This document shows, piece by piece, positions 2,037 through 57,618 of a stretch of 63,842 nucleotides of DNA. The stretch is taken from the NCBI GenBank assembly GCA_022072125.1, contig JAJVIH010000017.1:1-63842 (forward strand). The letters run 5' to 3'. The stretch comes from Myxococcota bacterium. Its GTDB lineage: Bacteria > Myxococcota > JAJVIH01. The translations under genes and the position numbers were made by a program. Position 1 is the first letter of the stretch. Each line of letters opens with the position of its first letter. Below the pieces are notes generated by a model. The model saw nothing but the letters and a program-made list of their open reading frames with translations, ran no database searches and was not told where the DNA came from.

Positions 2037-3437
2037 ATGACACTTATTCGTAATTGTTCCAGCCAGATCGCGTTTGCCCTGACGTTCGCCAGCCTGATCA
2101 TTCTGACTGGATGCGGCGCCGACACGCCCATTCCAGGGCGCAAACTGAGCGCGGCCTGCGCAGCGGAAGGCAAATCCTGCCTGAGCAACGACAATTGCTG
2201 CGAGGGGCTCACCTGCGAAGGCGGAGTCTGCACCATGGCGGCCAGGGCCTGCGCCACCGATGAGGATTGCGGATTCGCCGCCACCTGCAACCCTAGCACC
2301 AATATCTGCGAGACTTTTGACAACACCAATCCGGATCCCGGCTCGGTGGGCTCCGACGCGGGCGCCAGCCCGGGCGACGCCCAGGCTCCGGAAAGCGACG
2401 CAAGCACGCCGGAGTGTACCTCCAGCAAGGATTGTCAGGGCGGCAAGGCTTGCGTAAAGAGCAAATGCGCCGAACCCACGACCTGCAAGGACAATTCCGA
2501 ATGTCCCGAGGGATGGACCTGCAACGGCTTCCAGAACAAATGCATCCAGTCCAGCGAATGCGTGGCGGATAGCGATTGCGTTTCCAAGGCGCCCAAAACC
2601 AAATGTGATGCGGGCAAATGCGTCGAGCCTGCGGCTGGGGAGACCTGCAAATCCGATACGGACTGCGATCCGGTGAACACCGACAAAATCTGCCAGGCCG
2701 GGAAATGCGAGCCGGCCCTGACCTGCCGCACCAACGCCAGTCTGTGCGTCACCGGTGAGGAATGTGATCGCCAGACCGGCAAATGCGTTCCCAAGCCGGG
2801 CGGCGGCGGCGGTTGCTCCAGCGACGCCGACTGCGCCAGCAGCGCGTCCGGCTCCCGTTGCAACCCCGCCGCGAAGCAGTGTGTGGAATGCCTGGGCAAC
2901 AGCGATTGCAGCGGCGGAAAGACCTGCAACCTGACCTTGTACCGTTGCGAAACCAGCGGCGGCGGCGGTGGTGGAGGCTCCTGCAAGAAGGACAGCGAAT
3001 GTTCCGCGCCAACTCCCAAGTGCAATTTCACGACCTCCACCTGCGTCGAGTGTATGGGCAACAGCGATTGCCCCGGCTCTTCCTGTGACCTCACCGCTTT
3101 CACCTGCAAATCCGGCGGAGGAGGAGGTGGAGGCGGCGGTGGTTGCCAGACCAATGCGGATTGCCCCAACGGTGGTTTTTGCATCGGCGGCAACTGCATT
3201 GGCGGAGGCGGCGGAGGAGGAGGTGGAGGAGGCGGCGGTTCCGGGGCCAAAGGCGACCCCTGCCAGGCGGATCAGGATTGCCAAAACGGATTGAGTTGCG
3301 CCAGTGGCATCTTGTTTGGCAAATTCGGCGGGAAGGTCTGCGCGGTGAAATGCAGCCTGCTCAAACCTTGCACCGACCCCGCTGAAACCTGCAATGCAGG
3401 TTTGTTTTCCGGGGATAAGGTGTGTATTCCCAAATAA
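2037..3437 (+). CDS. Cys-rich, Gly-rich lipoprotein A (Dickkopf-like repeats)
   Basis: 466 aa. The ATG at 2037 gives a clean lipoprotein signal peptide (basic start, hydrophobic core, lipobox LTGC with Cys near residue 24); an in-frame GTG at 2001 would add 12 residues before it and lies at the predicted transcript start. After an Asp/Ala/Pro linker come about ten short Cys modules of the form C-x4-DC-x4-5-C-x4-6-C, resembling the Dickkopf N-terminal Cys-rich repeats common in myxobacterial surface proteins. Modules are joined by pure glycine linkers, the longest 13 Gly. One block, DCDPVNTDKICQAGKC, recurs in the proteins at 4593 and 6011. Presumably a lipid-anchored surface or periplasmic protein; no enzymatic domain is visible. 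First gene of a cluster ending in a radical SAM enzyme. Confidence 0.75.
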   Translation: MTLIRNCSSQIAFALTFASLIILTGCGADTPIPGRKLSAACAAEGKSCLSNDNCCEGLTCEGGVCTMAARACATDEDCGFAATCNPSTNICETFDNTNPDPGSVGSDAGASPGDAQAPESDASTPECTSSKDCQGGKACVKSKCAEPTTCKDNSECPEGWTCNGFQNKCIQSSECVADSDCVSKAPKTKCDAGKCVEPAAGETCKSDTDCDPVNTDKICQAGKCEPALTCRTNASLCVTGEECDRQTGKCVPKPGGGGGCSSDADCASSASGSRCNPAAKQCVECLGNSDCSGGKTCNLTLYRCETSGGGGGGGSCKKDSECSAPTPKCNFTTSTCVECMGNSDCPGSSCDLTAFTCKSGGGGGGGGGGCQTNADCPNGGFCIGGNCIGGGGGGGGGGGGGSGAKGDPCQADQDCQNGLSCASGILFGKFGGKVCAVKCSLLKPCTDPAETCNAGLFSGDKVCIPK

Positions 3438-3484
3438 CCGGTTGACCGCCAACCCCTCAACCAAACCAACTCAAAAACTCGCAC

Positions 3485-4579
3485 ATGAACAAGAATCTTC
3501 TGGTCCTGTTGGCCTTGGGCGGCGTCCTCGCATGCGCCGCCTGTTCTGGCGGCGATGGCGGCACGGATGCCGGCACCAGGCGGCCCGATGCAACGACTTC
3601 AACCTGCCAGTCGGACAACAACTGTCAGGCGGGGGAAACCTGCTCGGGCGGCATTTGTGTCCGCAAATGCGCCAGCGACACCGATTGCACCGCCTTGGGG
3701 CCGGGGTTCAAGTGCAGCACCATCAACAACACCTGCTTCCAGGAAACCCCGGCTGACGCCGACGGCGGATCGGCCACGCCATCCGATGGCGCGGTGGTCA
3801 ACCCCGGTTCCTGCATCTCGAATGAGGAATGCAAGCCGGACCGGATCTGCGTCGCCGGAAAATGTGACGCGCCTTCCACCTGCAACGCCACCAACGCCGA
3901 TACCGCCTGCCCGGTGGGATGGGAGTGCAACACCCTCTCTCAGCAGTGCAAAAAGACCCAGACCGGTTGCACGGCGGACAGTGACTGCACCAGCCAGGCT
4001 CCGAAGACCAAATGCAACACCGCCACCGGGCAGTGTGAGGAGCCGCCCAAAACCTGCAGTCCCCCCTGCCTCACCACTGAGCGTTGCAACCCCACCACCC
4101 TGACCTGCGAACCGGGTGGTCCGGCTGGTTGCACCTCGGACGCCATGTGCCCGCCGGGCCAGAAGTGCAATACCGCCATTGGCCAGTGCGAATCCCCGCC
4201 TGACGGCGGAACCACCGACGGCGGTGGTCCGACCACGCCGTGCAGTTCCAATATTGATTGCCTGGCTTCGGGCATTCCGGGCGCCAAATGCATCAACAAC
4301 CTGTGCCAGGCCCCGCCGCCGCCCAAAACCTGCACCACCGACACCGATTGCGACACCGCGGCGGGCGAAAAATGCAACAGCGGTTCCTGCGGAACCCCGC
4401 CCGGCAGTGGCGGCCCCTGCGCCATCTGCGCCCAGGATGGCGACTGCGACGCAACCAAGGGCCTGACCTGCGGACGCCTCAGCAAGAAATGCATTGTCAA
4501 ATGCCAGGCGGACACGGATTGCGCGGCGTTCCCCAATCCGGTGTGCGGCCAGCCCTTCGGATTCTGTTCCTGTCAGTAG
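3485..4579 (+). CDS. Cys-rich lipoprotein B (Dickkopf-like repeats)
   Basis: 364 aa, starting 47 bp after the previous stop with no strong Shine-Dalgarno. The signal peptide ends in ACAAC followed by Ser-Gly-Gly, a lipobox. The mature protein has an Asp/Gly linker and about nine Cys modules (examples SDNNCQAGETC and TADSDCTSQAPKTKC). Unlike its neighbours it has Pro-rich and Asp-Gly-rich linkers instead of long Gly runs. It ends in GFCSCQ directly before the stop, a tail shared in form by the proteins ending at 5918 and 7870. Paralogue of the other three lipoproteins of this cluster; likely lipid-anchored. Function unknown. Confidence 0.75.
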   Translation: MNKNLLVLLALGGVLACAACSGGDGGTDAGTRRPDATTSTCQSDNNCQAGETCSGGICVRKCASDTDCTALGPGFKCSTINNTCFQETPADADGGSATPSDGAVVNPGSCISNEECKPDRICVAGKCDAPSTCNATNADTACPVGWECNTLSQQCKKTQTGCTADSDCTSQAPKTKCNTATGQCEEPPKTCSPPCLTTERCNPTTLTCEPGGPAGCTSDAMCPPGQKCNTAIGQCESPPDGGTTDGGGPTTPCSSNIDCLASGIPGAKCINNLCQAPPPPKTCTTDTDCDTAAGEKCNSGSCGTPPGSGGPCAICAQDGDCDATKGLTCGRLSKKCIVKCQADTDCAAFPNPVCGQPFGFCSCQ

Positions 4580-4592
4580 CAGGGGAATCGTC

Positions 4593-5918
4593 ATGACAGC
4601 CTCGCGGCGATATGCGTTCCTGATGCTGCTGGCAGGGGGCGCCGCCGCCGTGGGATGTTTTCCCGAAACCTCGCTGCCAGCCAGCGGCTTTGCTTGCGTG
4701 AGCCAGGCGGATTGCCCGGCGGGACAAAGCTGCCTGGATGGACGCTGCGTATCCCCATCCGGTGACAACGACGGCGGTTCCCCTCCGCCTTGCCGCCTCA
4801 ATTCCGATTGTCCGGAAGAAGAGCATTGCGTGGAAAACCAGTGCCAACCCCTGGCCGGCGCGGGGGATGGCGGTGGAACCGGATCCACCGGTCCAAACCC
4901 GGGGGCCGATGGCTCCGTCGCGCCCCCGCGCGATGGCGGTGCGCCCGCGGACGGCGGATCAACGGATGGCGGAACCGGTTCCGATGCGGGGCCGCCCCCT
5001 GTCTGCCGCGCGGATCGCGACTGCATCACTCCCGAATTGCCGCGCTGCAATCCCCAGGGAAGCGTTTGCGTCCAGTGTATGGGCAATGCGGATTGCCAGG
5101 CGCCCGCATCCTGTGATCTGACCAGCCTGCGTTGCGTGAAACCTCCCGGCAAATGCGCCAGTGACGCCGATTGCGCCGCGCCGCAGGCCCGCTGCAATCC
5201 GGCGGGGTTTGTCTGCGTGGGTTGTTACGACAACGCGCACTGCCCTGGCGGCGTATGCAACCTGGGGTCCTTCGCCTGCCAGCAGGATTCGACCTGCCGC
5301 ACCAACGCCGACTGCGACCCGGTCAACACGGATCGCGAGTGCAAGTCGGGCCGTTGCGTGGCCGCCAATACCTGCAGATCCAACCCGGCCCTTTGCGGCG
5401 CGGGGCAGACCTGCGATCGCGCCGCCGGAACCTGCAAGAACACCGGCGGTGGCGGCGGCGGAACAGGCCCGGATTGTCCCACCGCCCAGGGTTGCATCGA
5501 GAAAAACTGCCTCCAATCCGGAGACATCAACTGTTTCAATTCCTGCTTCAGCGCCGATGGTCCGGCCTGCACCGCCTGCGCCCAGAATCTGGCTTCTTGC
5601 GGCGTCTCCACGGGCTGCATTGGAAGCGGCGGGCTGGATATTCCCTGTTTGACGAGCAAATGCCCCGGAGAGTTCAATCAGTGTTTTGTCAGCGGCGGCT
5701 CCGGCGGTGGAGGAGGAGGGGGTGGGGGAGGAGGAGGCGGTTCCGGCAAGGGCGTTCATTGCAGCCCATGCTCCCAGGACAGCGACTGCGACAAATCGCT
5801 CAACCTGACCTGCAGCCGCATCCAGAAAAAATGCACGCGCGGCTGCTTCAACAGCGGCCAGTGCCAGGATTTCGCCGCCAAGCGCTGTGCGTTTGTGGGT
5901 TCGTGCGACTGCAACTGA
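4593..5918 (+). CDS. Cys-rich, Gly-rich lipoprotein C (Dickkopf-like repeats)
   Basis: 441 aa. The ATG at 4593 is preceded by AGGGGAA, a good ribosome-binding site, and starts a signal peptide with lipobox AAVGC. Upstream in-frame codons overlap the previous gene and are not needed. It carries Cys modules, an Asp/Gly/Pro linker around residues 90-135, a copy of the DCDPVNTDRECKSGRC block, a stretch of differently spaced Cys (about residues 295-355) and a 12-Gly linker. It ends in SCDCN before the stop. Only 13 bp separate it from lipoprotein B, so the two are probably cotranscribed. Likely a cell-surface lipoprotein of unknown function. Confidence 0.75.
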   Translation: MTASRRYAFLMLLAGGAAAVGCFPETSLPASGFACVSQADCPAGQSCLDGRCVSPSGDNDGGSPPPCRLNSDCPEEEHCVENQCQPLAGAGDGGGTGSTGPNPGADGSVAPPRDGGAPADGGSTDGGTGSDAGPPPVCRADRDCITPELPRCNPQGSVCVQCMGNADCQAPASCDLTSLRCVKPPGKCASDADCAAPQARCNPAGFVCVGCYDNAHCPGGVCNLGSFACQQDSTCRTNADCDPVNTDRECKSGRCVAANTCRSNPALCGAGQTCDRAAGTCKNTGGGGGGTGPDCPTAQGCIEKNCLQSGDINCFNSCFSADGPACTACAQNLASCGVSTGCIGSGGLDIPCLTSKCPGEFNQCFVSGGSGGGGGGGGGGGGGSGKGVHCSPCSQDSDCDKSLNLTCSRIQKKCTRGCFNSGQCQDFAAKRCAFVGSCDCN

Positions 5919-6010
5919 AGACGCGCACCGGGCGCCGCCGCGGAGCGGGGAGCAAGGCTTGCGCTGTGACCGCGAATTGATGATGATTCAGTTTCCCGGT
6001 GCATGATTTC

Positions 6011-7870
6011 ATGTTCCATTCCAGTTCATACCGGCCCCTTCTGAAACTGCTCTTCGCCGCGGGCGCGGCGGCGCTGGCGCTGACCGGCTGCTTTCCGGAA
6101 TCGGAAGTCGCCGGCTCCTACCGTTGCGACGAGGGCGGAACCTGTCCAACGGGACTCTCGTGTTTCCGGGGGAGGTGCCTGGAAAAAAGCGAACTCCGCG
6201 ACCTGGGCTTGTGCTCCGAGGACAGTGACTGCCCCACCGGGCGGGTCTGCCGTTTCCTGCAATGCGTGAATCCGGATGAGATCCCGCCGGCGGACGCGGG
6301 GTCGTCCCCATTACCGGGTTCCGACGCGGGTCAGTCCGGTCAGCCCGACGCGAAGGAAGAAGGCTGCCAGTCCCACCGCGACTGCGGCATTGACCGTGTA
6401 TGCCGCGAGCGCCAGTGCCTGCGCCCGGGCGATTGCAAGGGCAACAATGATTGTCCGGTCAACTGGGCGTGCCAGGCCGATTCGCTGCAATGCGTTCGCG
6501 TGGTCGAGTGCGGCGAGGATCTGGATTGTCAACCCTATGCGCCGCGCACCAAATGCACCGCCGAGGGACGGTGTATTGATCCCAATCCGCCGCCGCCGGA
6601 ATGTACGTCCAACGAGAACTGCGACCCGGTCAACACCGATCGCAAATGCGCTTCGGGAAAATGCGTTCCGGCGCAGACCTGCCGCACCATCCCCAGTATT
6701 TGCGCGGCGGGGGAAATCTGTGATCGCACGCAGGGCCGCTGCGCCGCGAACGCCCGCTGTTCCGCCAATGCGGATTGCGCCGCCGATCCCAGACTGGCGG
6801 TGTGCAATCCCGCCTCCGGAAAATGCGTCGAATGCCTCGCCAATGCGGAATGCGGTTTTGGCCGGCAATGCAACCTGACTTCGCTGACCTGCGAAGATTC
6901 GCCTGTCATCAAATGCAAGCAGGACCGCGATTGCCCCTCCACCGGCAAGAAGAAATGCCATCCCAACCTGCTGGAATGCGTGGAATGCCTGTCCAGCCCG
7001 GATTGCCCGGTGGGAGTGTGCAACCTGGTCTCGCTGGCCTGCGATGGCGTGGACAAGGGCGATGATCTCTGCCTGCTGGAATGCCAGAACCCCACCACGG
7101 ATCCGAACAACCCGCAGCGTTGTCCCAACAGTTCCAAGATATGCATTCCGTTTCTGCAGGGGCGGGGGACGGCTCCCGGCGCCTGCATACCCGCCAGTTA
7201 CCGGCCCGGGACCAATCCCCCCGGCCAACCCGGTCAACTGGATGGCCGCTGTGGCGCGGTGACCCCATGCAGCCAGGGCGTCTGCGTGACGGTCATCGCC
7301 ACGGTCGCCTGCCGCGCCGATCGGGATTGCGCGCAAACCGCCAACACCAAAAAATGCCTGACCGCCGAACAGCGCTGCGTGCAATGCCTGTCCAACGGCG
7401 ATTGTCCGTCTGGCAAATGCGATACCGGCCGCAATATCTGCCTGGCTGGCTCCGGCTGCTCCGCCGACGCCGATTGTCCCGCTGGCCAGCGCTGCAATGC
7501 TTCCCGGCAATGTGAAACGCCGATCACCCCTCCGGGTTGCCGCAACGATTCGGAGTGCGCCAGCTTGGGGCCCGGATACAAATGCATTTCCGGCGGATGC
7601 AAGCCGCCCGCCAATCCGGGAACCTGCGCCACCAACACCGATTGCACGCCGCCCGAGGTGTGTGATCCGGTATCGAAAACCTGCACCACCACTCCGCAGA
7701 AGGGCGGGCCCTGCACCCCATGCACGCAGAACGCCGAATGTGATTCCGCGCAGGGGCTGATATGCGGACGCCTGTCCAAAAACTGCGTGCGGCGCTGTTC
7801 CAGCGCGGCGGACTGCGCGGGCTTCAGCTCCAACAGTTGTTCCTCGCTCGGGTTCTGCTCCTGCCGGTGA
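6011..7870 (+). CDS. Cys-rich lipoprotein D (Dickkopf-like repeats)
   Basis: 619 aa from the ATG at 6011; a GTG at 5999 would add four residues and neither has a clear Shine-Dalgarno. The signal peptide ends in lipobox LTGC. It is the largest of the four paralogues, with more than a dozen Cys modules, the shared DCDPVNTDRKCASGKC-type block and several repeats of 'C(V/L)ECL(S/A)...DCP'. Gly runs are absent. A less Cys-dense segment lies around residues 350-420. It ends in GFCSCR before the stop, like lipoprotein B. Twelve bases separate it from the radical SAM gene, which argues for a functional link. Confidence 0.75.
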   Translation: MFHSSSYRPLLKLLFAAGAAALALTGCFPESEVAGSYRCDEGGTCPTGLSCFRGRCLEKSELRDLGLCSEDSDCPTGRVCRFLQCVNPDEIPPADAGSSPLPGSDAGQSGQPDAKEEGCQSHRDCGIDRVCRERQCLRPGDCKGNNDCPVNWACQADSLQCVRVVECGEDLDCQPYAPRTKCTAEGRCIDPNPPPPECTSNENCDPVNTDRKCASGKCVPAQTCRTIPSICAAGEICDRTQGRCAANARCSANADCAADPRLAVCNPASGKCVECLANAECGFGRQCNLTSLTCEDSPVIKCKQDRDCPSTGKKKCHPNLLECVECLSSPDCPVGVCNLVSLACDGVDKGDDLCLLECQNPTTDPNNPQRCPNSSKICIPFLQGRGTAPGACIPASYRPGTNPPGQPGQLDGRCGAVTPCSQGVCVTVIATVACRADRDCAQTANTKKCLTAEQRCVQCLSNGDCPSGKCDTGRNICLAGSGCSADADCPAGQRCNASRQCETPITPPGCRNDSECASLGPGYKCISGGCKPPANPGTCATNTDCTPPEVCDPVSKTCTTTPQKGGPCTPCTQNAECDSAQGLICGRLSKNCVRRCSSAADCAGFSSNSCSSLGFCSCR

Positions 7871-7882
7871 CGGAGGAGATTC

Positions 7883-9208
7883 ATGCCGTTCACCGCCCCC
7901 GATGACAGCCTGTGCGCCCCCTGGGATGAGTCCCCGGAGGTGCTCGAAAACGGTGATGGCCTGCCGGGAAAACATATCTACGCCATCTTTGTCGCCGGGT
8001 TCTGCAACCTGAATTGTCACTACTGCTACCTGCCGGATCGCAAAGGTCCGGGCATGAGCCGGGACATGGCCGAAGCCACGCTCCAGTTCATCGCCAGCCG
8101 CCCGGCCCGGCGGCGCGATGTGGGTTTTTTCGGTGTGGAGCCGATGACCGAATGGGAACTCATCCAGTGGATGATCGCCCGGGCGCTGGAAGTGGTTCCC
8201 GGCGTGGAGTTTTCCCTCAACACCAACGGAACGCTGTTCACCCCGGATCGGTTGGATTTCCTGGCCTCGCATGGCTGCAAGATCGCCATCAGTATTGACG
8301 GCGCGCCGGAAACCCATGATCGCAACCGTCCCACCCTGGGCGGCAAGGGTTCGTGGAAACTGCTGGCGAGGCATATCCCGGATCTGGTGAAGTATCCGCA
8401 CAAGGTCTACACGCGCATCACGGTGGCCCCGGATCGCGCGCATTGCTTCGATGCGGATGTCGCCGCCATTTTTGGTCTGGGCCTGCCGCGCGTCAGCTTT
8501 TCCATGGACTTGACGGCGGACTGGAGCGATGCCCAACTGGACTCCCTGGAGGCTTCCTGTGAACGGCTGGCGGATTGGTATATCCGCCAACTGGAGTCCG
8601 GCGCCATTCCGGAAATCGCCAGTTGGGACTCCATTGGCAAGGGCCGGAGCGTACCCAAGGCGGGTCTGTTTTGCGGTGCCGGCGATATCCTGCTCTCCAT
8701 CGCGCTGGATGGAACCATTTATCCGTGCTGGCGTTACGCCGGGGACAAATTGCATCCCATTGGGCATGTGAAAACCGGCATGGATCGGGAAAAGCAGGCC
8801 CCCTTCGCCGGATTCGACACCCTTGGCCAGATGAAGGGATGTTCCACCTGCGCCAACAACCGCACCTGCGGCCGCTGCGCCTGGGTCAGCGAAAAATACG
8901 CCGGCGCCATGGATCGGGTGACTCACGCCCAATGCCGCGGCTCCGCGATTTTTATCGCAGCGGGACAGCGGGTTTCCCGGGAATTGCTGGCCAGGCAGAA
9001 CCCCATTTACCTGTCGCGCCTGCTGGGCAGGGCGTTGCGCACGGTGGGCGAACCGGGCGCGCCGGCGCCAGAAGCCATGGGCGAATCAACCGGAGATGTC
9101 GTGTTGCTGCGCGGCGCCGGCGGGCGTTTCTACGCCGTTCCCCGATCAGAACTGGCCGCCCTGCAAGCCCTGGCGCCGGATCGCGCCGGCGCTGGAGCCG
9201 CCACATGA
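7883..9208 (+). CDS. Radical SAM / SPASM domain enzyme
   Basis: 441 aa, preceded by GGAGGA. The 4Fe-4S cluster motif CX3CX2C is CNLNCHYC (C41, C45, C48), followed by FFGVEP in place of the usual GGEP SAM-binding motif. The C-terminal half has a SPASM-type Cys cluster pattern (LFCGAGD, IYPCWRYAG, CSTCANNRTCGRCAW and a final Cys). Radical SAM/SPASM enzymes mainly modify peptides or proteins (sulfatase maturation, RiPP crosslinks). The last 40 residues after the cluster include GGRFYAVPRSELAAL, an extra segment. Position directly after four Cys-rich lipoproteins suggests, but does not prove, that they are its substrates. The stop overlaps the next small ORF by ATGA. Confidence 0.88.
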   Translation: MPFTAPDDSLCAPWDESPEVLENGDGLPGKHIYAIFVAGFCNLNCHYCYLPDRKGPGMSRDMAEATLQFIASRPARRRDVGFFGVEPMTEWELIQWMIARALEVVPGVEFSLNTNGTLFTPDRLDFLASHGCKIAISIDGAPETHDRNRPTLGGKGSWKLLARHIPDLVKYPHKVYTRITVAPDRAHCFDADVAAIFGLGLPRVSFSMDLTADWSDAQLDSLEASCERLADWYIRQLESGAIPEIASWDSIGKGRSVPKAGLFCGAGDILLSIALDGTIYPCWRYAGDKLHPIGHVKTGMDREKQAPFAGFDTLGQMKGCSTCANNRTCGRCAWVSEKYAGAMDRVTHAQCRGSAIFIAAGQRVSRELLARQNPIYLSRLLGRALRTVGEPGAPAPEAMGESTGDVVLLRGAGGRFYAVPRSELAALQALAPDRAGAGAAT

Positions 9209-9438
9209 TCCACCCCGCCCCGGCGCTTTGGGCGCCGCGCGTGGAATCATATGAAATGGAATCGTCCGGCGCCCAGTCCGCGAAATGCATGGGTTATCCG
9301 TTCACGCCGATCACACCCGCCGCCCATTCCGGGACGCCAGCCCGTCAATTCGCCATCCAGCGACAATCCGGCAAACGGGCGAAATCCCCACGGGAGCCGG
9401 TGGAATATGGCCGCCGCCTGGCGCCGCCCGTCATTTGA
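9205..9438 (+). CDS. Small ORF translationally coupled to the radical SAM gene (77 aa)
   Basis: The ATG at 9205 overlaps the stop of the radical SAM gene (ATGA), with GGAG upstream. The product is Pro/Ser/Arg-rich, has a single Cys (in AKCMGYPF), no signal peptide and no membrane segment. Codon third positions are GC-rich as in true genes of the window. It matches no family I recognise. A short peptide coupled to a radical SAM/SPASM enzyme could be a modified precursor, but chance overlap is possible. Confidence 0.35.
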   Translation: MIHPAPALWAPRVESYEMESSGAQSAKCMGYPFTPITPAAHSGTPARQFAIQRQSGKRAKSPREPVEYGRRLAPPVI

Positions 9439-9546
9439 AACGGGAAAACCGCTTGTTTCCGCTTGAGCTGGAAGTTCGTGTCGTGGTAACATTTATTGAC
9501 AAACGTTGGCTGAATATGGACCTATTTTTCAGTCACAGGGGAACCC

Positions 9547-9912
9547 ATGGCAAAGTTGTTGATTGTGGATGATGATCCCGGGTTTCTGGAGTATGTCAGG
9601 CTGGCTTCGCAACGGCTTGGCCTGGAGATGCAAGGATTCACCCGGCCGGAAGATTTTTTATCCTTTGTGGATGGCGGAGTGGCGGATATCGCCATCATTG
9701 ATGGTTTGTTGCCGAAAATGGATGGCATGAAACTTCTGTCCCAGTTGAAGGGGCATCCCAACCGCCCGCGCCGGATCATTTTCCTGTCGCATTTTTTCAA
9801 GGACCTGAAATCGCACCAGCAAATCCAGCAGCTTGGGGCGGATGTCATCCTGCACAAGCCGATTACTTTCGACCGCCTCTGTTCGGAACTGGAAAACCTG
9901 GTGAGGAAATAG
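9547..9912 (+). CDS. Single-domain response regulator (receiver only)
   Basis: 121 aa, the length of a lone CheY-like receiver. Acidic pocket DDD at residues 8-10, phosphoacceptor Asp about residue 52 (IIDGLLPKMDG), Ser 81 in the Thr/Ser switch position (FLSHFF) and conserved Lys 104 (HKPI). It has no output domain, so it would act by protein-protein contact or as a phosphorelay intermediate. No histidine kinase is adjacent. The preceding noncoding stretch holds a TTGACA at 9496-9501 but no well-spaced -10 box. Confidence 0.88.
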   Translation: MAKLLIVDDDPGFLEYVRLASQRLGLEMQGFTRPEDFLSFVDGGVADIAIIDGLLPKMDGMKLLSQLKGHPNRPRRIIFLSHFFKDLKSHQQIQQLGADVILHKPITFDRLCSELENLVRK

Positions 9913-15142: not shown

Positions 15143-16846
15143 CTACTTGCACAGGTTGGGCACGCAGGCGCTGCCCGCGGACTGCTTTTCACAGAAGGCG
15201 TTTTCACCGCAGTCGCTGTCCTGCTTGCAGCCGAACAGGCTGCAGAAACGGGCGCGGGCGTCAAACGTGGCCAGGCAGAGCGTCGCCTTGCCGTTGCCTT
15301 CGCATTCCTTGCCGCCCTTCTTGCAGGATTTGCCCACCCCCAGCGAGTTTCCGGGCGTCCCTTCGGGCGGGCAGAATCCGCCGCCGTTGTCCTGGCCGAT
15401 GACCTTGGGTTTGCCGTCTCCCGGCTCGCATTTCAGAAAACCCCGTCCCGGGGAATAGTAGACCAGTCCCACGCACATTTCCTCCGGCCAGATCAGTTCA
15501 TGGTCCGTGGGATTTTTCCAGACGCAGGTGATCTGCACCTTGTCTCCTTTTTTCCACTGCAGGGGCTTGTCGCCATGGGCTTTGATATCGGGGCTGTTGC
15601 GCAACAGACGCCCATCGGTTCCCTGGTAGAGCAGTTCGGGCGTTCCGCCGCCCGCTGGAATGCGGCTGTAGCTGAACAGCCTCGCGTATTCGTGCATATG
15701 TCCCAGCATGATGTGGATATTCATGTCCGTGTCGAGTTCGCAGGTGGTTTCCACGCGGTGGCTGTCCGCTCCGCTGGGGATTTTGAAATCGCCATTGAGC
15801 ATGGCGAAGGCGTCCGCCATGACGGACTGGGCTCCCTTGTCCGAAGGGATGAGATCAATCGCATCCATCACGGTCACTTCCTTGTCCTGCACATTGATAT
15901 AATGGGCCTGAATCAGGAATTGCGACCCCTTGTCCACCTTGACGGCGTGCCCTGCCGCGAGACCGGTGTTTCCGGCGTCGCCAAAGCTGGCCATGACGAA
16001 CCGGATATTGGGCATCTGATCATCCTTGCACAGCACCGGCGTGGGATCATCGCTGGGAACCAGCGCCAGGAAAGCCGCGGTGTGGTGCCCGCCGCGCATC
16101 TGGTAGCCCCGGATATCCTGCACATAAAGGTCGTCCGCCAGCCGATCGGGGATATAAGCGCAGATGGTGACGTCCGACTTCGGCGGAATTTTCATGGGTT
16201 TGGTGAAAATCCGCAGCGCCTGGGGGTGGCTCTTTTCAGGGAAACACTTCCGCAGTCCTTCTTCATCGGTGGCCGTGCAGTTGATGTATTCGTTGCCCTT
16301 GCCCGCGGACAGCTTGTCCTGCTCGATATCGAAATGGATGGCGTCGCCCTTGAGCGGCGCTCCCGCCTCGATCCACTTCACGATGGCTTCGCGCAGTTTG
16401 GGGCCCGGTTTGGGCAAACTGCCGAACGGCATGGGAGAGCCGTATCCTTTCTCCACCAGGTCCTGGGTGGAGGTGGCGAGTTTCCAATACAGAAGGGATT
16501 TTTCCGGGTCGCGGGGGGTGACCAGCTTGAGACCATCGGCGGCGGCCTGGGGATGCCGCACATCGCCCAGGATCAGGCGCTGGTAGGATTTTTCCAGGTT
16601 GTCGAAGGAAAGCCCGGCCACGCCTTCGCCGCTGTGGCAACCCTGAACGCCGCAACCGCCCGCCTTGAGGACATACTGGTTGTAGAGCGCTTCGTAACCG
16701 ATGACGCCGGTCGCGCTGGCGCTCGATCCATCGGCCGCCGGCGCCGCGCCGCCGCCATCCATCCGGACGGACGATTCAGAACATCCGGTCATGAAAGCCA
16801 GCCAGGCGGACAACAGGATCGCCCCGGAAAAATAAAGTTTCTTCAT
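15143..16846 (-). CDS. Lipoprotein with cytochrome-c-like and copper monooxygenase (PHM-like) domains
   Basis: 567 aa. Signal peptide with lipobox MTGC (Cys about 22). Residues about 50-165 resemble the small cytochrome-c-like domains of myxobacterial and planctomycete secreted proteins, but the motif is CX4CH (C65, C70, H71), not CXXCH, so heme attachment is uncertain. Residues about 205-470 carry the ligand set of ascorbate-dependent type II copper monooxygenases: GGHH (254-255), AHY (H315), LGHMH (H383, H385) and EEMC (M457). The C-terminal 60 residues are a Cys-rich tail like those of the lipoproteins at 2037-7870. Likely an exported or surface oxidoreductase; substrate unknown. SD AGAGGAGC precedes the start. 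Confidence 0.75.
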   Translation of the reverse strand: MKKLYFSGAILLSAWLAFMTGCSESSVRMDGGGAAPAADGSSASATGVIGYEALYNQYVLKAGGCGVQGCHSGEGVAGLSFDNLEKSYQRLILGDVRHPQAAADGLKLVTPRDPEKSLLYWKLATSTQDLVEKGYGSPMPFGSLPKPGPKLREAIVKWIEAGAPLKGDAIHFDIEQDKLSAGKGNEYINCTATDEEGLRKCFPEKSHPQALRIFTKPMKIPPKSDVTICAYIPDRLADDLYVQDIRGYQMRGGHHTAAFLALVPSDDPTPVLCKDDQMPNIRFVMASFGDAGNTGLAAGHAVKVDKGSQFLIQAHYINVQDKEVTVMDAIDLIPSDKGAQSVMADAFAMLNGDFKIPSGADSHRVETTCELDTDMNIHIMLGHMHEYARLFSYSRIPAGGGTPELLYQGTDGRLLRNSPDIKAHGDKPLQWKKGDKVQITCVWKNPTDHELIWPEEMCVGLVYYSPGRGFLKCEPGDGKPKVIGQDNGGGFCPPEGTPGNSLGVGKSCKKGGKECEGNGKATLCLATFDARARFCSLFGCKQDSDCGENAFCEKQSAGSACVPNLCK

Positions 16847-51336: not shown

Positions 51337-51362
51337 ACCGCCGCTCTCCGCGGCGGTTTTTT
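51337..51362 (+). terminator. Rho-independent terminator of the tRNA operon
   Basis: CCGCCGC (51338-51344), loop TCTCC, GCGGCGG (51350-51356) and six T. It separates the tRNAs from the cas operon, so cas10 needs its own promoter. Confidence 0.78.
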
Positions 51363-51478
51363 ATTTGCCAGCAATGGTGTTCCTGCTTCCGTCTCCTCCG
51401 CGCGCCGTCTCCTCCGGGCCGCGCATGGGGTCATGGTCCGGCGAAGATTCTGGTCCGGAGCCCTGGTGAAAGACTTGT

Positions 51479-51499
51479 GGAAGCGCCGGCGGCGCTTCC
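51479..51499. other. Perfect hairpin in the cas10 upstream region
   Basis: GGAAGCGCC (51479-51487), loop GGC, GGCGCTTCC (51491-51499). No T run follows. Could be an operator or an RNA element in the 5' region of the cas operon; the rest of 51363-51569 shows only a TTGACC at 51546-51551 without a good -10. Confidence 0.4.
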
Positions 51500-51569
51500 A
51501 ACGATGATTGCGGAGCTTCAAGGTTGCTGGGGCGCCGCGATGCGCTTGACCTGGCTTCGCGAAAAGTGT

Positions 51570-51587
51570 GAGCATGTTAACATGCTC
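51570..51587. promoter_or_regulatory. 18-bp perfect palindrome over the cas10 start codon
   Basis: GAGCATGTTAACATGCTC is its own reverse complement; the ATG at 51582 lies inside it. A dimeric repressor bound here could control cas10. Both the palindromic DNA and the sequestered start codon are plausible. Confidence 0.5.
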
Positions 51588-53024
51588 GCAATCGTGGATG
51601 TCTCCGGAATCCAGCAATATGTCTTCGATTTGCCATCGGAGGGCGGCGGTCAGGCGGCGCGGCTGCGCGCGCGTTCCTTCCTGGTTCAAGCCCTGGCGGA
51701 TGCATGCGCCCGCCGTTTTACGGGTATTCTCGGGCTGCCTTGCAAATCCATTGTGCTCAGCGTGGCTGGCAAGGCATATATCCATGCGGAAGACGGGTTT
51801 GACGCGGAACGCCTTGCCGGCGCGGTGGAGCAGGTGGAAGAGGAGGTTCGTCAGGAATTTGGCGCATCGCCACGTGTCATCATTGGCGCCACGCCACTCG
51901 CCGGAAAACCGGGTGTCCTCTTGGCGAAGGCGAACTCCTGCGCTCGCCTCCGCAAGCTCCAGCCCTTCGCACCACCTGGCGGCAAAAACTGGGACCCCAA
52001 ATTGCTTGTTGGCGGAGACTTGCGAGGTAAATGGTCACCGGAGTGTGAAACCGATCTTGGCAATAAGTTACGAACTGTGAAGTCCTTTGGACCCGCGGCT
52101 GGGACTGGTAAAATAAATATCGTTGGTATTCCTTACGATTTGCATGAACATGAAAAGGTTGAACGGGAAGCGATTCCGCTTGCCCAGTACGTTCCTCTCA
52201 AGGGCCAAGACATTCGTGATTTCAATGACTTGGCGACCGGAGCACGCGGAGCCCCATATCTGGCCGTTGTCAAGGTGGATGTGGACAACCTGGGGCTAAG
52301 CATGAAGGCCCGGCTTGACGCCGACCAGTCAGGAGCCCAACTGTTTGAACTGGCGAAGAAATTGCACCAATTCTTCTCCGTGGAGTTGTGCGATTTGATT
52401 GCCCGGGAGAAGGCGTTCAAAGAGACAGTTTACCTTGTGTACGGCGGTGGAGACGACCTGTGCGCTGTCGCGCCCTGGGATGTTGCAATTGAATTTGCCG
52501 GCGGCGTCCACGATGAGTTCACCCGCGTCTTCCAGGCGGAAAAACTGACTCTGAGTTGCGGCATTGCACTGATGAAGCCCGGCTTTCCCTTGCGCAAGGC
52601 GGTTGAGTCAGCCGATGCGGAGTTGACCCGCGCCAAGGAGGCGCCGGCGCGTGGCAAGGTCGGCCCCAAGGACCAGTTGGCCATTCTGAGTGAAACCTGG
52701 AAGTGGGCCGTCCATCGCGAAATCTGGTCATCGGCGATGGCGTGGGCGAAATGGGTTGGTCCTTCTTCACCGGAAGGGAAGGCGAACCGGGGATGGCTCC
52801 AGACGATCAACCGGCTGGCGGACGCCCGCGACAAAGGCGACCCGCTCGCCGACGCCCGGCTCCATTATTATATCGTAAGAAATATCGAAAAAAACGGGAA
52901 ATGGACCAGTGGCGGCGCGCCAGACCCGCGTGAGGATTTTGTCAAAACACCGATTGGAGCGGACTATCTTGGCGTCACGATGCGCCTTGCGTTGCTTGCG
53001 ACCCGGGGCAAGGAGGAATCATGA
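51582..53024 (+). CDS. cas10: Type III CRISPR Cas10 (Csm1-like), without HD domain
   Basis: 480 aa from the ATG at 51582; an ATG at 51540 would add 14 residues. The protein opens almost directly with VDVSGIQQYVFD, which in Csm1/Cas10 marks the start of the first palm domain, so the N-terminal HD nuclease of about 100 residues plus linker is absent. The second palm has VVKVDVDNLG and the GGDD cyclase motif (VYGGGDDLC, about residues 289-292), intact for cyclic oligoadenylate synthesis. The CxxC zinc-binding motif often found between the palms is not seen. Usual Csm1 is 750-850 aa. First gene of a coupled cas operon, with ATGA overlap to csm2. Confidence 0.85.
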   Translation: MLAIVDVSGIQQYVFDLPSEGGGQAARLRARSFLVQALADACARRFTGILGLPCKSIVLSVAGKAYIHAEDGFDAERLAGAVEQVEEEVRQEFGASPRVIIGATPLAGKPGVLLAKANSCARLRKLQPFAPPGGKNWDPKLLVGGDLRGKWSPECETDLGNKLRTVKSFGPAAGTGKINIVGIPYDLHEHEKVEREAIPLAQYVPLKGQDIRDFNDLATGARGAPYLAVVKVDVDNLGLSMKARLDADQSGAQLFELAKKLHQFFSVELCDLIAREKAFKETVYLVYGGGDDLCAVAPWDVAIEFAGGVHDEFTRVFQAEKLTLSCGIALMKPGFPLRKAVESADAELTRAKEAPARGKVGPKDQLAILSETWKWAVHREIWSSAMAWAKWVGPSSPEGKANRGWLQTINRLADARDKGDPLADARLHYYIVRNIEKNGKWTSGGAPDPREDFVKTPIGADYLGVTMRLALLATRGKEES

Positions 53025-53560
53025 GCAATGGAAATCGCAACAAATGGCAGGGCGGCGGTCGTCGCCAGAACGGCGGCCATCAGGCGCAATCGAGAGACCA
53101 ACGGGATGAACTGGAAAGCGTTGACGAAATCTGGTCCAACTACCTTAAGGATGGATACTTCAATGAGAGGGGATTTCCGCGAACCGAGTTCATGGACCGC
53201 GAACATGTGATGCCTCTTGTGGAGGCGCTTGGGTCGCGAGACCGTAATCCGCCGCTTACCAATTCCCAGATTCGCCGGTTCTTCAATCACGCCCGTGGCA
53301 TCGAAACGCGGTTGCGGAATGGATCTGATTGGGGGGAGATTGCGCACGCTTTTCATCAACTCGATTTGGCCGCCGCGGACGCCGCGGGGAAATCCGACAA
53401 GAAGATTCCGCTGCTGTTCCACGATTTCATTCGTGCAAATGTCATGGCGGTCACAAGAGACCCTGATCCCGCGCGTGCGTTCATCAAAGGATTCATGCCG
53501 CATTTCGAGGCCGTCATTGGCTTCGGCAGCGGTAAATTCACGGAAGGCAAAAGATCATGA
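53021..53560 (+). CDS. csm2: Csm2 (Cas11), small subunit of the Csm complex
   Basis: 179 aa, mostly helical. It contains LTNSQIRRFFNHARGIETRL, which matches the 'LTTSQIRKF' region of Csm2, and a C-terminal FIKGFMPHFEAVIGF of the family. The first 40 residues are disordered, Gln/Gly/Arg-rich and specific to this protein. Csm2 forms the belly filament that contacts target RNA and Cas10. ATGA overlaps at both ends. Confidence 0.85.
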   Translation: MSNGNRNKWQGGGRRQNGGHQAQSRDQRDELESVDEIWSNYLKDGYFNERGFPRTEFMDREHVMPLVEALGSRDRNPPLTNSQIRRFFNHARGIETRLRNGSDWGEIAHAFHQLDLAAADAAGKSDKKIPLLFHDFIRANVMAVTRDPDPARAFIKGFMPHFEAVIGFGSGKFTEGKRS

Positions 53561-54288
53561 CCCAGCGTAAACTCACCAAGCTCATCAAACTCACCGGTAA
53601 GATCAAGCTCAAAACCGCCACGCGGGTTGGCGGCAACGATGGCTCGCTTCGAATTGGCGGCGTCGACCTGATGTGCATAAGGGATCCGGTTACGGACTTG
53701 CCCTATATCCCGGGCTCATCGTTGAAAGGGGCCATGCGCGCCGCCATCGAAAAGAAAGAGGGCCGGTGGGGGAGACCGAAGGAGAATCACCGCGGACAAT
53801 TCGAAGACAACCCGAAAGAACCCTGTATGTGCGGAACGTGTGCAATCTGTCGCGTATATGGGGCGCACAAAAACACCCAATCCCGCACCGGCCCGAGCCG
53901 CATCGTCGTTCGCGATGCCCATCTTATCCAGGAAGATCAAAAGATTGGAAAGATGGAGATCAAAACGACAAACACGATTGATCGAAAAACAGGAGCCGCT
54001 GTTCATCCACGGATGGAGGAGCGTGTTCCCGCCGGTTCGATGTTCAAACTTGAAATGGTCTTGTCCGTGTACAACGATGACGCCACTTTCGAGTACGATG
54101 AAAAGCGGGGTGAAGAAGCGCTGTTGGAAGTCATCGGCACAAGCCTGGGCCTGGTTCAGGAGGGCGCGGGTCTTGGATCGAGTGTGAGCCGCGGTTCCGG
54201 GCAGATCGAATTGATCGATCCCGAGATGGAGGAAATTGAAAAGCCCAAGGTTGTCTTCAAGCCCATCTCATCGCACGAAAGCAAATGA
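53557..54288 (+). CDS. csm3: Csm3 (Cas7), backbone RAMP and target RNA endonuclease
   Basis: 243 aa. RAMP fold with the signature LPYIPGSSLKGAMR; catalytic Asp (about D37) in LRIGGVDLMCIRDP, so target RNA cleavage every six nucleotides is predicted to be active. A Cys-rich stretch CMCGTCAICRVYGA probably binds zinc, as in other Csm3. Gly-rich loop GAGLGSSVSRGSGQI near the C-terminus. It is the only cas7 gene in the operon. Confidence 0.9.
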   Translation: MTQRKLTKLIKLTGKIKLKTATRVGGNDGSLRIGGVDLMCIRDPVTDLPYIPGSSLKGAMRAAIEKKEGRWGRPKENHRGQFEDNPKEPCMCGTCAICRVYGAHKNTQSRTGPSRIVVRDAHLIQEDQKIGKMEIKTTNTIDRKTGAAVHPRMEERVPAGSMFKLEMVLSVYNDDATFEYDEKRGEEALLEVIGTSLGLVQEGAGLGSSVSRGSGQIELIDPEMEEIEKPKVVFKPISSHESK

Positions 54289-55238
54289 CCCTCAAAGCCT
54301 TTCGTATCACCATCCGGCCGCATGGGCCGTGGCGCACGCCTTGGCGCGCCGATGTGCTCGCGGGTTCGCTGGTCTCCGCCGTGATACGTGTGGCCGGCGC
54401 CGATGAAGTAGTCCAGAACATTATCAGACCCGCGTTCGAGGGCAGGCATGCCTTCGCTGTTTCGGATGCTACCCCCAAGGGCTGCGTGCCGGCTCCGATG
54501 TCGCTTCAGAATCTGGAATGGCCGTTTGAATATTTAAAGCCCATCAAGCGCATCCGGTTTGTACAGCGGAAAGTGATTGATGACCTGCGTAATGGGCGGT
54601 ATCCCACTATCGAGACGCTCCTCAAATCACAGCCCGTGATGTCAAGGCGCCACGTACTGGTGCGTAACAGCATCAATCGCGAATTTCACACCACCGGATA
54701 CGAAGACGGCGGCGGCCTGTACAACGAAGAAGTGGAATGGCCGGAGGCGCCGCACCTGGACATCGCCGTGCGTTGCGAAGATCAGGCTTTTGACTGGCTG
54801 AAGAGCGCTTTTGAACTGCTGGCCCATGCAGGTTTTGGCGGCGGCCGGAGCGTGGGCCGCGGAGCATTTGATATTGTCGAGCCGCTCGCCCGGGATGAGT
54901 GGTATGACAAACGCCATCCAGACGGAGCCTGGATGGCCCTGGGCTGTTTTCAACCCGCCAGCCGCGATCCCACTGACGGATTGTGGCGTGCGTTTCGCAA
55001 GGATGGCTGGTTCAGCCAGGAACTGGGGGCTCCCCAGGCGGAAAAAGAACCCATGATGCTGCTCGAAGCCGGCGCCTGCTTCAAGGGCATGAATGACGAC
55101 GGCTGTCTGGGCCGCGCCATTGATTGCACCAGAGAATTGGCCGATATGGCGTCCCGTAAGTGGTTTCAGGAACAAGGTTTGGCGGTCGCGCACTTTGCGC
55201 TGGCTCCAGCCATCTGGATTGGCAAGCCATCCTGGTGA
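54285..55238 (+). CDS. csm4: Csm4 (Cas5), crRNA 5'-handle binding RAMP
   Basis: 317 aa. N-terminal GPWRTPWRADVLAGSLVSAVI corresponds to the first RAMP strand/helix of Csm4, and GFGGGRSVGRGAFDIV to the glycine-rich G-loop. Csm4 binds the 8-nt crRNA tag and anchors Cas10. Divergent sequence, but length and gene order support the call. No csm5 gene follows; the next ORF is a CARF protein after 38 bp. Confidence 0.78.
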   Translation: MTLKAFRITIRPHGPWRTPWRADVLAGSLVSAVIRVAGADEVVQNIIRPAFEGRHAFAVSDATPKGCVPAPMSLQNLEWPFEYLKPIKRIRFVQRKVIDDLRNGRYPTIETLLKSQPVMSRRHVLVRNSINREFHTTGYEDGGGLYNEEVEWPEAPHLDIAVRCEDQAFDWLKSAFELLAHAGFGGGRSVGRGAFDIVEPLARDEWYDKRHPDGAWMALGCFQPASRDPTDGLWRAFRKDGWFSQELGAPQAEKEPMMLLEAGACFKGMNDDGCLGRAIDCTRELADMASRKWFQEQGLAVAHFALAPAIWIGKPSW

Positions 55239-55276
55239 CGCCCCGCTGACGAAATTCAGACCCGGAGGAAATCAAA

Positions 55277-56560
55277 ATGGACATGACCAGTCAGGTTCTT
55301 GTGATGACAGTGGGAACTGGCGACCCAGAACAACAGGAAGAGACCTTGTTCAAACCCATGAGAGAGTCCATTAAAAAGGGCGAATGGAAACAGGTCATCC
55401 TGCTTCCGTCAAAAATGACGGAAGCAAATGCCTCTCGTCTGAAAACCTCACTTCCAAACTCGTTCGATATTTTTTCCTTGCCGGGATATGGCGATGAGGA
55501 TGATGTGGACAGGTGTTACCAACACTTCGTGGGAGTGTTGCGCGAACTCGTGAGAAAAAATGGCGCACCGCATATCGTCTGCGACTTTACGCGCGGAACC
55601 AAGGCCATGTCGGCGGCCCTTCTGATGGCCGCGATTCGGTGTGGCGCCGTTCACGCCCGGTATGTCACTGGTGAACGCGAAGGACCAACCGTAAAACCGG
55701 GCGCGGAAATTATTCATGATGTCCGGTTGGCCACGGCGATGGTGGAGTGGGCGCTCTCGGCCGCGGAATCCATGTTGAATGGGAGGGCTCCATCGGCCGC
55801 GATGAAATTGTTGGAGATGCCCGGCATAAAGGATCCGCCCGTGCCTGACGAGACTTCCGGGCGCCGGGCCCTGCTGCTTCATTTCGCTCGAATGCTCACC
55901 GCATGGAACCAGTTTGATTACCGTCGTGCTATTCAACTGGCACGTGAATCGCCAGGGACCACATCGCCGGAATTGCTCAATCATCTTGAAATGTGCCGGG
56001 TTCCGCAAGATTCCGATCAATGGGACAAACTCGATTGCATGGGAAAATCCCAAGTGCTCGAACACCTGATCGCGGACATGATCGAGAACGCGCGGCGATG
56101 TTGTGAGAGCGACGGCTACGAAGACGCCTTGCTGCGCCTTTACCGCGCGACCGAATTGATCGGGCAAGCGAGGTTGTTTCGTGAAGGGCTCGACTCCGGG
56201 AATTTGAACAGCAGTCACCCCGCGGTTCGAGAGTTGATCCAAGACAATAAGAAGCCGCTTCAACCCAATGATAAAGGGGTCTATCAAGCGGCCCGCCTGG
56301 ATGCCGCCCGTCTGCTCACGCGTTGCGACAATCTGGACTCCAGGTATTTGGGCGAGATGCTGAAAAAGGAGGATGATGCCGCGAAGTCCATGCACAAACG
56401 GAACCTGAGCGTGCTCAACCATGGCTATCAAGCGCAGGCGCCGCAAGACCAGCAAGACTGGGAGGCCATGTTTCAACGCATCGAGGGGTTGTTTCGCCAG
56501 CTTTGCGAAGATGCGGACGTGAAGTTGAACACCGCCCGTTTCCCCAATCCGCCGGCATGA
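55277..56560 (+). CDS. CARF-HEPN effector (TIGR02710/Csm6-like), cyclic oligoadenylate-activated RNase
   Basis: 427 aa with GGAGGAAA upstream. The N-terminal Rossmann-like CARF domain has VLVMTVGTG and the ligand loop CDFTRGTKAMS (D103, T105, K109). The middle is helical. The C-terminal domain has RNLSVLNHG (R375, H382), an RX4-6H HEPN RNase motif. This matches the TIGR02710 family of type III accessory proteins. Predicted to be activated by Cas10-made cyclic oligoadenylate and to cleave RNA nonspecifically. Its stop overlaps the cas6 ATG. A CARF-encoded ring nuclease activity cannot be judged from sequence alone. Confidence 0.82.
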   Translation: MDMTSQVLVMTVGTGDPEQQEETLFKPMRESIKKGEWKQVILLPSKMTEANASRLKTSLPNSFDIFSLPGYGDEDDVDRCYQHFVGVLRELVRKNGAPHIVCDFTRGTKAMSAALLMAAIRCGAVHARYVTGEREGPTVKPGAEIIHDVRLATAMVEWALSAAESMLNGRAPSAAMKLLEMPGIKDPPVPDETSGRRALLLHFARMLTAWNQFDYRRAIQLARESPGTTSPELLNHLEMCRVPQDSDQWDKLDCMGKSQVLEHLIADMIENARRCCESDGYEDALLRLYRATELIGQARLFREGLDSGNLNSSHPAVRELIQDNKKPLQPNDKGVYQAARLDAARLLTRCDNLDSRYLGEMLKKEDDAAKSMHKRNLSVLNHGYQAQAPQDQQDWEAMFQRIEGLFRQLCEDADVKLNTARFPNPPA

Positions 56561-57618
56561 CATCACCCGGAAACCATCCCGCCGCCCTGTTGATGCCCGC
56601 CACCTTGCCCGTGGCGCGCCTGACCGCCACCTATGTGGCCCGCGGCGCGCTCGACCTGGGGGTTTTCGCCGGACCCGCGGTGCGGGGCGCGCTGGGGCAA
56701 TCGCTCCGCGAGTCCGCCTGCGTCACCCGGCTCAAGGATTGCGCGCCCTGCCCATTCACGCACGGTTGCGCCTACGCCTTCCTGTTCGAGACGGAGTTGT
56801 TTCCGCGCGCTCGCCACGGCGGCCAGGCGACGGCCGGCTATGCGCTTGGCCCCATCTCGCCCGCTGGCGGAATGCTGGCGCCGGGGGCCGTATTCACCGT
56901 CTCCCTGCACCTGTATGGACCCGCCGTCACCCATGGCGCGCTGTGGGCCAGCGCGCTCTCCCGGCTCGGGGACAGTTCGTTCGCGGGCGGCGCGCTTGCC
57001 TTTCGCCACGTCACGACCTGTTGGCCCGCGGCGGAACGGGAGGAGTCCGGCTGGCGCCCGCCGCCGCCGCCCTCCCTGGCGGCCTGGCTGCACAACCCGC
57101 CGCCGGTGGACATGCCGGCCGATCTGTGGCTGAGCTACGCGGGGCCCGCCCGCCTGCGCCGGAAAGGGGTGGAGTTGACGACCCCGTCGTTTTCCGATGT
57201 GGTTCGCGCGCTGTTGCGCCGTGCATGGGAAGTCGAACATGATCACGGCTCCCCGCTATGGCCTCCGGAGCGGGAGAACGCGGTGCATATGGCTCTCGCG
57301 GCGGCGGACCTGGTCGCCAGCAGTGAATCGCGGTTGTCCCGTTTGATGGTGGAGCGGCGCGACCGGCGCGTCGCCGGGGTCGCTGGCGAACAGGTTTTCC
57401 GGGGCGCGCCGGGATGGCTTGCTCCGGTGGTCATGCTGGCGGCGTGGTTGCAGATAGGCAAGGGCGTGGCGCAGGGGTATGGAGCCACCCGTGTCGCCTG
57501 GCGTGAGTCCGGCGAAAAAAAAGATGAATGTTCAGGAGATGGCGCGGGGATCCAGGGCGTTTTTTCCGGTGATAAAATGGAAAAAGCACTTGATCTTTCA
57601 GATGATTTTCTGGCATAG
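56557..57618 (+). CDS. cas6: Cas6, pre-crRNA processing endoribonuclease
   Basis: 353 aa; the ATG at 56557 overlaps the CARF gene stop. RAMP-type Cas6 of the large 'CRISPR system precrRNA processing' kind, with C-terminal Gly-rich loop GKGVAQGYGATRV and Cys pair CAPCPFTHGC. Composition is much more GC-rich than the preceding five genes. The last 35 residues (from about codon 320) are hydrophilic, AT-richer and unlikely to belong to the fold; they read through the DNA just before the first repeat, which may double as the CRISPR leader. The stop codon's last base is base 1 of repeat 1. Confidence 0.85.
   Translation: MTSPGNHPAALLMPATLPVARLTATYVARGALDLGVFAGPAVRGALGQSLRESACVTRLKDCAPCPFTHGCAYAFLFETELFPRARHGGQATAGYALGPISPAGGMLAPGAVFTVSLHLYGPAVTHGALWASALSRLGDSSFAGGALAFRHVTTCWPAAEREESGWRPPPPPSLAAWLHNPPPVDMPADLWLSYAGPARLRRKGVELTTPSFSDVVRALLRRAWEVEHDHGSPLWPPERENAVHMALAAADLVASSESRLSRLMVERRDRRVAGVAGEQVFRGAPGWLAPVVMLAAWLQIGKGVAQGYGATRVAWRESGEKKDECSGDGAGIQGVFSGDKMEKALDLSDDFLA

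Follow-up and report, generated by a model that had tools for sequence, protein, structure and literature searches.

Four Cys-rich lipoproteins encoded directly upstream of a radical SAM/SPASM enzyme in a Myxococcota bacterium: possible substrates of a peptide-maturase-type protein

The maturases of ribosomally synthesized and post-translationally modified peptides (RiPPs) are known mainly for small peptides. Among those that use radical S-adenosylmethionine (SAM) chemistry, CteB and the SCIFF maturases hold a RiPP recognition element (RRE) in their N-terminal 100 or so residues. PapB, of the PapB/PapA ranthipeptide system (NF047865), takes almost any Cys with a downstream Asp or Glu (CXnD, n = 0–6; PMC9413430). 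Cys-rich repeats of the Myxo_Cys_RPT type (TIGR04201) have a counterpart in those of TraA, which carries MYXO-CTERM (PMC13184517). Radical SAM/SPASM enzymes linked to lipoproteins have a named NCBIfam precedent in TIGR04133 (rSAM_w_lipo), and such pairing as such has thus been noted before. Here, we describe a locus in which four genes for Cys-rich lipoproteins (P1–P4) precede a gene for a radical SAM/SPASM enzyme (P0005). The window analyzed is the whole 63,842-nucleotide contig JAJVIH010000017.1 (C23) of the 3.97 Mb Myxococcota assembly GCA_022072125.1 (genome G000), and the comparison set consisted of 195 genomes of the phylum, which share only the phylum with it.

The five genes lie head to tail on the + strand (2037–9208; Table 1), with all five reading frames open, intergenic gaps of 47, 13, 80–92, and 12 bp in order from P1 to P0005, and a third-position G+C content of 0.72–0.78. 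The 12 bp gap between P4 and P0005 has no terminator-like site, and it is near certain that the five genes are co-transcribed as one operon. Since a 380 kb sample of the window's genome contained only 8 Cys-rich open reading frames (ORFs) per Mb, the adjacency of four such genes is not due to chance. The original prediction of four tandem paralogous Cys-rich lipoproteins 12 bp before a radical SAM/SPASM gene was borne out when coordinates, lipoboxes, modules, and cluster and SPASM cysteines were read. No small precursor-peptide gene was found between position 9208 and the next gene. An ORF at 9205–9438, which overlaps the end of the radical SAM gene and encodes one Cys, was set aside as too weak for a precursor call.

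P1–P4 each start with a type II signal peptide with a lipobox Cys (P1, Cys-26 in LTGC; P2, Cys-20 or Cys-17; P3, Cys-22 in AVGC; P4, Cys-27 in LTGC), as is typical of bacterial lipoproteins, and are predicted to be lipidated. They contain 60, 48, 55, and 83 Cys, respectively, with non-overlapping four-Cys modules (counts in Table 1), many of which are of the type CxxDxDCpxGxxCxxxxxxC. P4 aligns with P1 at 41% identity (E = 1e-44) and matches segments of P2 (E = 2e-19) and of P3 (E = 5e-13), and the four are, judged by sequence, paralogues. In repeat type and envelope location, they resemble the Myxo_Cys_RPT and TraA repeats. P4 scored 41.2 bits against TIGR04201, above the cut-off of 25 bits, and P1, P2, and P3 scored below it (16.8, 16.1, and 21.7 bits); P3 also weakly matched the TraA repeat region. 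Pfam matches were weak only and pointed to extracellular Cys-rich modules. Unlike P1–P4, however, the Myxo_Cys_RPT family shows no link to radical SAM genes, and TraA carries MYXO-CTERM where P1–P4 have lipoboxes. No relatives of P4 at E ≤ 1e-12 were found outside its own genome. The window encodes a further lipoprotein of 567 residues, with 21 Cys and without a Pfam family, at 15143–16846 on the − strand.

P0005 is an intact enzyme with a PF04055 match of 59.6 bits, above the cut-off, and its alignment shows conservation of the CX3CX2C motif and all seven SPASM Cys, as in radical SAM/SPASM peptide maturases. The NCBIfam ranking placed PapB first, over the radical SAM and SPASM regions (194.5 bits; cut-off 340), followed by QhpD (138; 453), nif11 (110; 519), and SCIFF (109; 425). 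By these profile scores, P0005 is of the peptide-maturase type and lies below every curated cut-off seen, fitting none of the four families. TIGR04133 was not in the best 25 matches of P0005, and matched weakly (56 of 425 bits) to a relative in G013:C279. An AlphaFold model (pLDDT 78.7, pTM 0.77) had CteB as its nearest solved fold (TM 0.70), followed by anSME and ChlB. The earlier assignment to a peptide-modifying class thus held, the nearest relatives being thioether-forming maturases (PapB, QhpD, and SCIFF by sequence and CteB by structure). Like CteB and the SCIFF maturases (TIGR03974; PDB 5WGG and 5WHY), P0005 has a full SPASM domain, but about 100 residues precede the radical SAM motif in those models and 40 in P0005. 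Since the motif begins at residue 41 and the model shows residues 1–27 as disordered, a fused N-terminal RRE would not fit. At residues 82–87 of P0005 (window 8126–8143) and in loci L073, L074, and L075, the usual FFGGEP motif reads FFGVEP, FFGREP, or FFGLEP.

The C-terminal tail of P0005, DVVLLRGAGGRFYAVPRSELAALQAL, carries the motif GxxYxxPxxxL and was modeled, with low confidence, as a β-hairpin and a helix. It recurs as SLMLSDESGCVYSLPPEELERYRV at the C terminus of the two closest homologues, both in G013, and is extended to WYE(I/L)GESDC(Y/F) in a same-genome paralogue (G000:C75) and in G013:C143. A profile of the tail also matched two radical SAM proteins of another family (G006 and G020), which end in NFYELGESDCY, as well as the N-terminal part of a Tyr/Trp-repeat protein from G095 (locus L170, G095:C1, 7063–7884; repeats AYFWD and AYNYASP), where the motif reads GxxYxIPxxxLxKY. 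The G095 protein adjoins P450-like and 2-oxoglutarate (2OG)-Fe(II) oxygenase genes and is a possible uncharacterized RiPP. In all, the tail is conserved in seven enzymes from several deep superfamily lineages, the neighbors of which are not conserved. Since the segment stands at the N terminus of a repeat protein in one genome and at the C terminus of radical SAM enzymes in others, it resembles a RiPP leader that has been joined to the enzyme. Standalone tail-type precursors were found neither in the window's genome nor in plasmids, with G095 as the one possible case. Radical SAM enzymes in which a leader-like segment leads into a short Cys-containing C terminus of the WYELGESDCY type are seen at L073 (8429–9649), L078 (8739–9920), L171 (1356–2369), and L172 (7059–8072).

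In both G006 and G020, the tail-bearing radical SAM gene has flanking genes for Cys-rich lipoproteins. A search for the C-terminal domain of P1–P4 in 1164 ORFs of homologue loci gave none, so these lipoproteins are not shown to be orthologous to P1–P4. With about 19 Cys-rich ORFs per Mb in the G006 sample, the adjacency is suggestive, not proof.

Elsewhere in the phylum, four genomes hold five PapB-like radical SAM genes that lie next to lipoproteins with a conserved leader before the signal peptide (G013:C279, G034:C33, G034:C100, G041:C369, and G189:C7). In G013:C279, three such lipoproteins, of the pattern M(K/R)IR....Y..PAYP...lipobox, stand in tandem upstream of the enzyme. Those of G041:C369, G034:C33, and G189:C7 share FQV.P(L/V)..Y.GA.Y(P/H), followed by Cys-rich repeats, and their genes lie 11–22 bp downstream of the enzyme gene; the G034:C100 sequence is MKPEPLKRYRTPAYP. 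The six leader-lipoproteins aligned share, without exception, M1, Y9, Y14, P15, and the lipobox Cys. A profile of the leader gave eight strong matches across the 195 genomes. Such an enzyme adjoins six of these; the other two are in G013:C387, a 15 kb contig with no such enzyme anywhere on it. The G189 protein was missed by the profile and read by eye. The profile found nothing in G000, and the window holds no leader-lipoprotein pair. None of the leader-lipoproteins tested matched an NCBIfam or Pfam family, and their enzymes form a supported clade (99/97) separate from that of P0005 (100/99). Leader-lipoproteins and PapB-like radical SAM genes look like a distinct system (coordinates: L082 [G013:C279] 3859–9578; L079 9431–11162; L076 9486–11353; L077 8918–11150; L111 9224–11150). 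These pairs in relatives, together with the leader-like tail fused to the enzyme, are the new elements here. The pairs also lend support to the wider notion that a lipoprotein is paired with a radical SAM maturase ahead of export, a notion for which TIGR04133 is a precedent. The window's own pairing is out of the ordinary, though seen in one genome, and its parts are themselves of known kinds.

The reading that we put forward, tentatively and with slightly less than an even chance, is that P0005 modifies co-transcribed pre-lipoproteins before Sec export. As a peptide-type radical SAM/SPASM maturase, P0005 would modify one or more of them while they are still in the cytoplasm, most likely making a few Cys-based cross-links, from Cys to a nearby Asp or Glu or to a backbone carbon. 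Sec would then export the modified chain, and after its lipidation signal peptidase II would cut it, making a dedicated protease or transporter unnecessary; most of the remaining Cys would pair as disulfides in the envelope. With neither a leader on P1–P4 nor an RRE found, recognition would depend on the repeats or else on the enzyme's own leader-like C-terminal tail. This reading is favored by the shared strand, the 12 bp gap with a ribosome site, the enzyme class, and the lack of a further evident polypeptide in the operon, as well as by the related enzymes that adjoin leader-lipoproteins and the G006 and G020 tail enzymes that adjoin Cys-rich lipoproteins. Moreover, the modules, which read CxxDxDC, have acidic residues downstream of Cys, as in the CXnD accepted by PapB. 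Enrichment of CX3D or other Cys–acid spacings was tried as a sign of PapB-type modification and rejected, controls away from radical SAM genes giving the same profile.

Several observations weigh against a role of P1–P4 as substrates. Acidic residues after Cys are equally frequent in Cys-rich proteins remote from radical SAM genes. The Cys remaining after the lipidated one number 58, 46, 54, and 82 in P1–P4, and these counts, all even, fit plain disulfides. The N termini are plain signal peptides, with no leader. The search for an RRE, which the original prediction had proposed, found none fused to P0005 and no PqqD/RRE gene in the genome (no PF05402 match at E ≤ 0.1; a diverged RRE could escape). 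Thus, neither the RRE nor the adjacent leader-plus-core precursor of PapB-, SCIFF-, or QhpD-type systems was found at the locus; unlike PapA, the putative substrates are lipoproteins of 360–620 residues. The two closest homologues of P0005 (40% identity) lie beside endonuclease V-like genes, one also beside an Rrf2 regulator, without a Cys-rich lipoprotein next door, an outcome named beforehand as counting against the idea, and the tail-bearing paralogues in G000:C75 and G013:C143 also lack such a neighbor. A search of the contigs of the whole collection for close relatives of P0005 turned up three distant loci only, and the arrangement of four lipoproteins and enzyme, the conservation of which the original prediction had suggested as a check, occurs in none of the 195 genomes. 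The literature searched yielded no account in which a lipoprotein serves as a radical SAM substrate, and signal peptidase and lipoproteins go unmentioned in a review of RiPP leader proteases (PMC10885120). The balance of evidence on the substrate question is therefore close to even: enzyme class, co-transcription, and the leader-lipoprotein pairs of relatives sustain this part of the original prediction, and the solitary closest homologues and missing leader and RRE detract from it.

G013:C85 was considered as a second radical SAM/Cys-rich lipoprotein pair and rejected, the copy beside the lipoproteins being a truncated duplicate. Here, a PapB-like radical SAM gene and its truncated duplicate (89% protein identity; L080 [G013:C85], 47–1171 and 7822–8217; L216, 266–1282) are found, with the duplicate directly before two Cys-rich lipoprotein genes.

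The observations against a substrate role bear on a close alternative, only slightly less probable, namely that P1–P4 are surface proteins of the ordinary, disulfide-rich Myxo_Cys_RPT type and that P0005 is an operon neighbor with its substrate encoded elsewhere in the genome. TIGR04201-type repeats were found at the strict cut-off in 75 of the 195 genomes, such lipoproteins being common in the phylum without radical SAM neighbors, and the sampled Cys-rich ORFs of the window's genome lie away from its radical SAM genes; the even Cys counts in four-Cys modules, the solitary closest homologues, and the missing leader and RRE would all be expected. On the other hand, the lipoproteins are the only operon mates of P0005, and maturases of its class usually adjoin their substrate. 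A VKOR gene was sought and not found, in a search that covered VKOR and not DsbB-type oxidation, which also speaks against this alternative.

A distinctly unlikely reading is that, in the tail-bearing enzymes, the C-terminal tail serves as substrate or gate of the very enzyme that bears it, with P0005 keeping the leader-like part only. The tail is kept in its seven enzymes while neighbors vary, its motif forms the N terminus of the G095 repeat protein beside oxygenase genes, and the enzymes of G000:C75, G013:C143, G006, and G020 could possibly combine enzyme and substrate in one chain, by analogy with borosin precursors. However, P0005 and its two closest homologues are without the Cys-containing end and hence without a target, and the motif could be a lid or docking helix. 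Least probable, in our view, is another radical SAM/SPASM job, such as anSME-like formylglycine formation on an exported protein or QhpD-like cofactor or quinone chemistry. anSME is the second-best fold match and QhpD the second-best NCBIfam match, but the former family matches weakly (57 of 349 bits), the latter is far under its cut-off, and no sulfatase or amine dehydrogenase subunit was recognized near the gene.

Table 1. Features of the lipoprotein–radical SAM operon, in window positions
Feature	Position	Strand	Remarks
Lipoprotein P1 (P0001)	2037..3437	+	Signal peptide II, 11 four-Cys modules, poly-Gly linkers
Lipoprotein P2 (P0002)	3485..4579	+	9 four-Cys modules; C-terminal module ends CSCQ
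Lipoprotein P3 (P0003)	4593..5918	+	12 four-Cys modules and an unlike Cys-rich stretch; ends CDCN
Lipoprotein P4 (P0004)	6011..7870 (GTG start at 5999 possible)	+	18 four-Cys modules; ends CSCR
Intergenic gap P4/radical SAM gene, 12 bp	7871..7882	+	GGAGG ribosome site; too short for a terminator
Radical SAM/SPASM enzyme P0005, 441 residues	7883..9208	+	Closest to PapB/QhpD/SCIFF-type peptide maturases
Radical SAM cluster motif CX3CX2C (CNLNCHYC), residues 41–48	8003..8026	+	From alignment
C-terminal tail of P0005, residues 405–430, DVVLLRGAGGRFYAVPRSELAALQAL	9095..9172	+	Leader-like motif common to homologues

Outside the operon, the window contains a Type III-A CRISPR-Cas locus (51357–58312; Cas10, Csm2, RAMP proteins, Csm6 HEPN, and Cas6), with an array of ten repeats at 66-bp spacing after Cas6 (57613–58312) and three tRNA genes immediately upstream of the locus. 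An Rfam scan returned tRNAs only.

A broader proposal, which we consider unlikely as it stands, is that Myxococcota have a radical SAM–lipoprotein family in which a RiPP-like recognition segment sits either on the substrate before the signal peptide, signal peptidase II then doubling as the leader peptidase, or, as in the window, at the C-terminal end of the enzyme in the form of a tail; in this way, repeat lipoproteins lacking a leader would acquire cross-links in the cytoplasm and be put on display at the cell surface. The leader-lipoproteins of related genomes make the idea testable at small, well-defined loci. If P0005 does modify P1–P4, cross-linking of large repeat lipoproteins before export would be a route to hard-wearing surface proteins, in which Sec and signal peptidase II would stand in for the usual dedicated transporter and leader protease.

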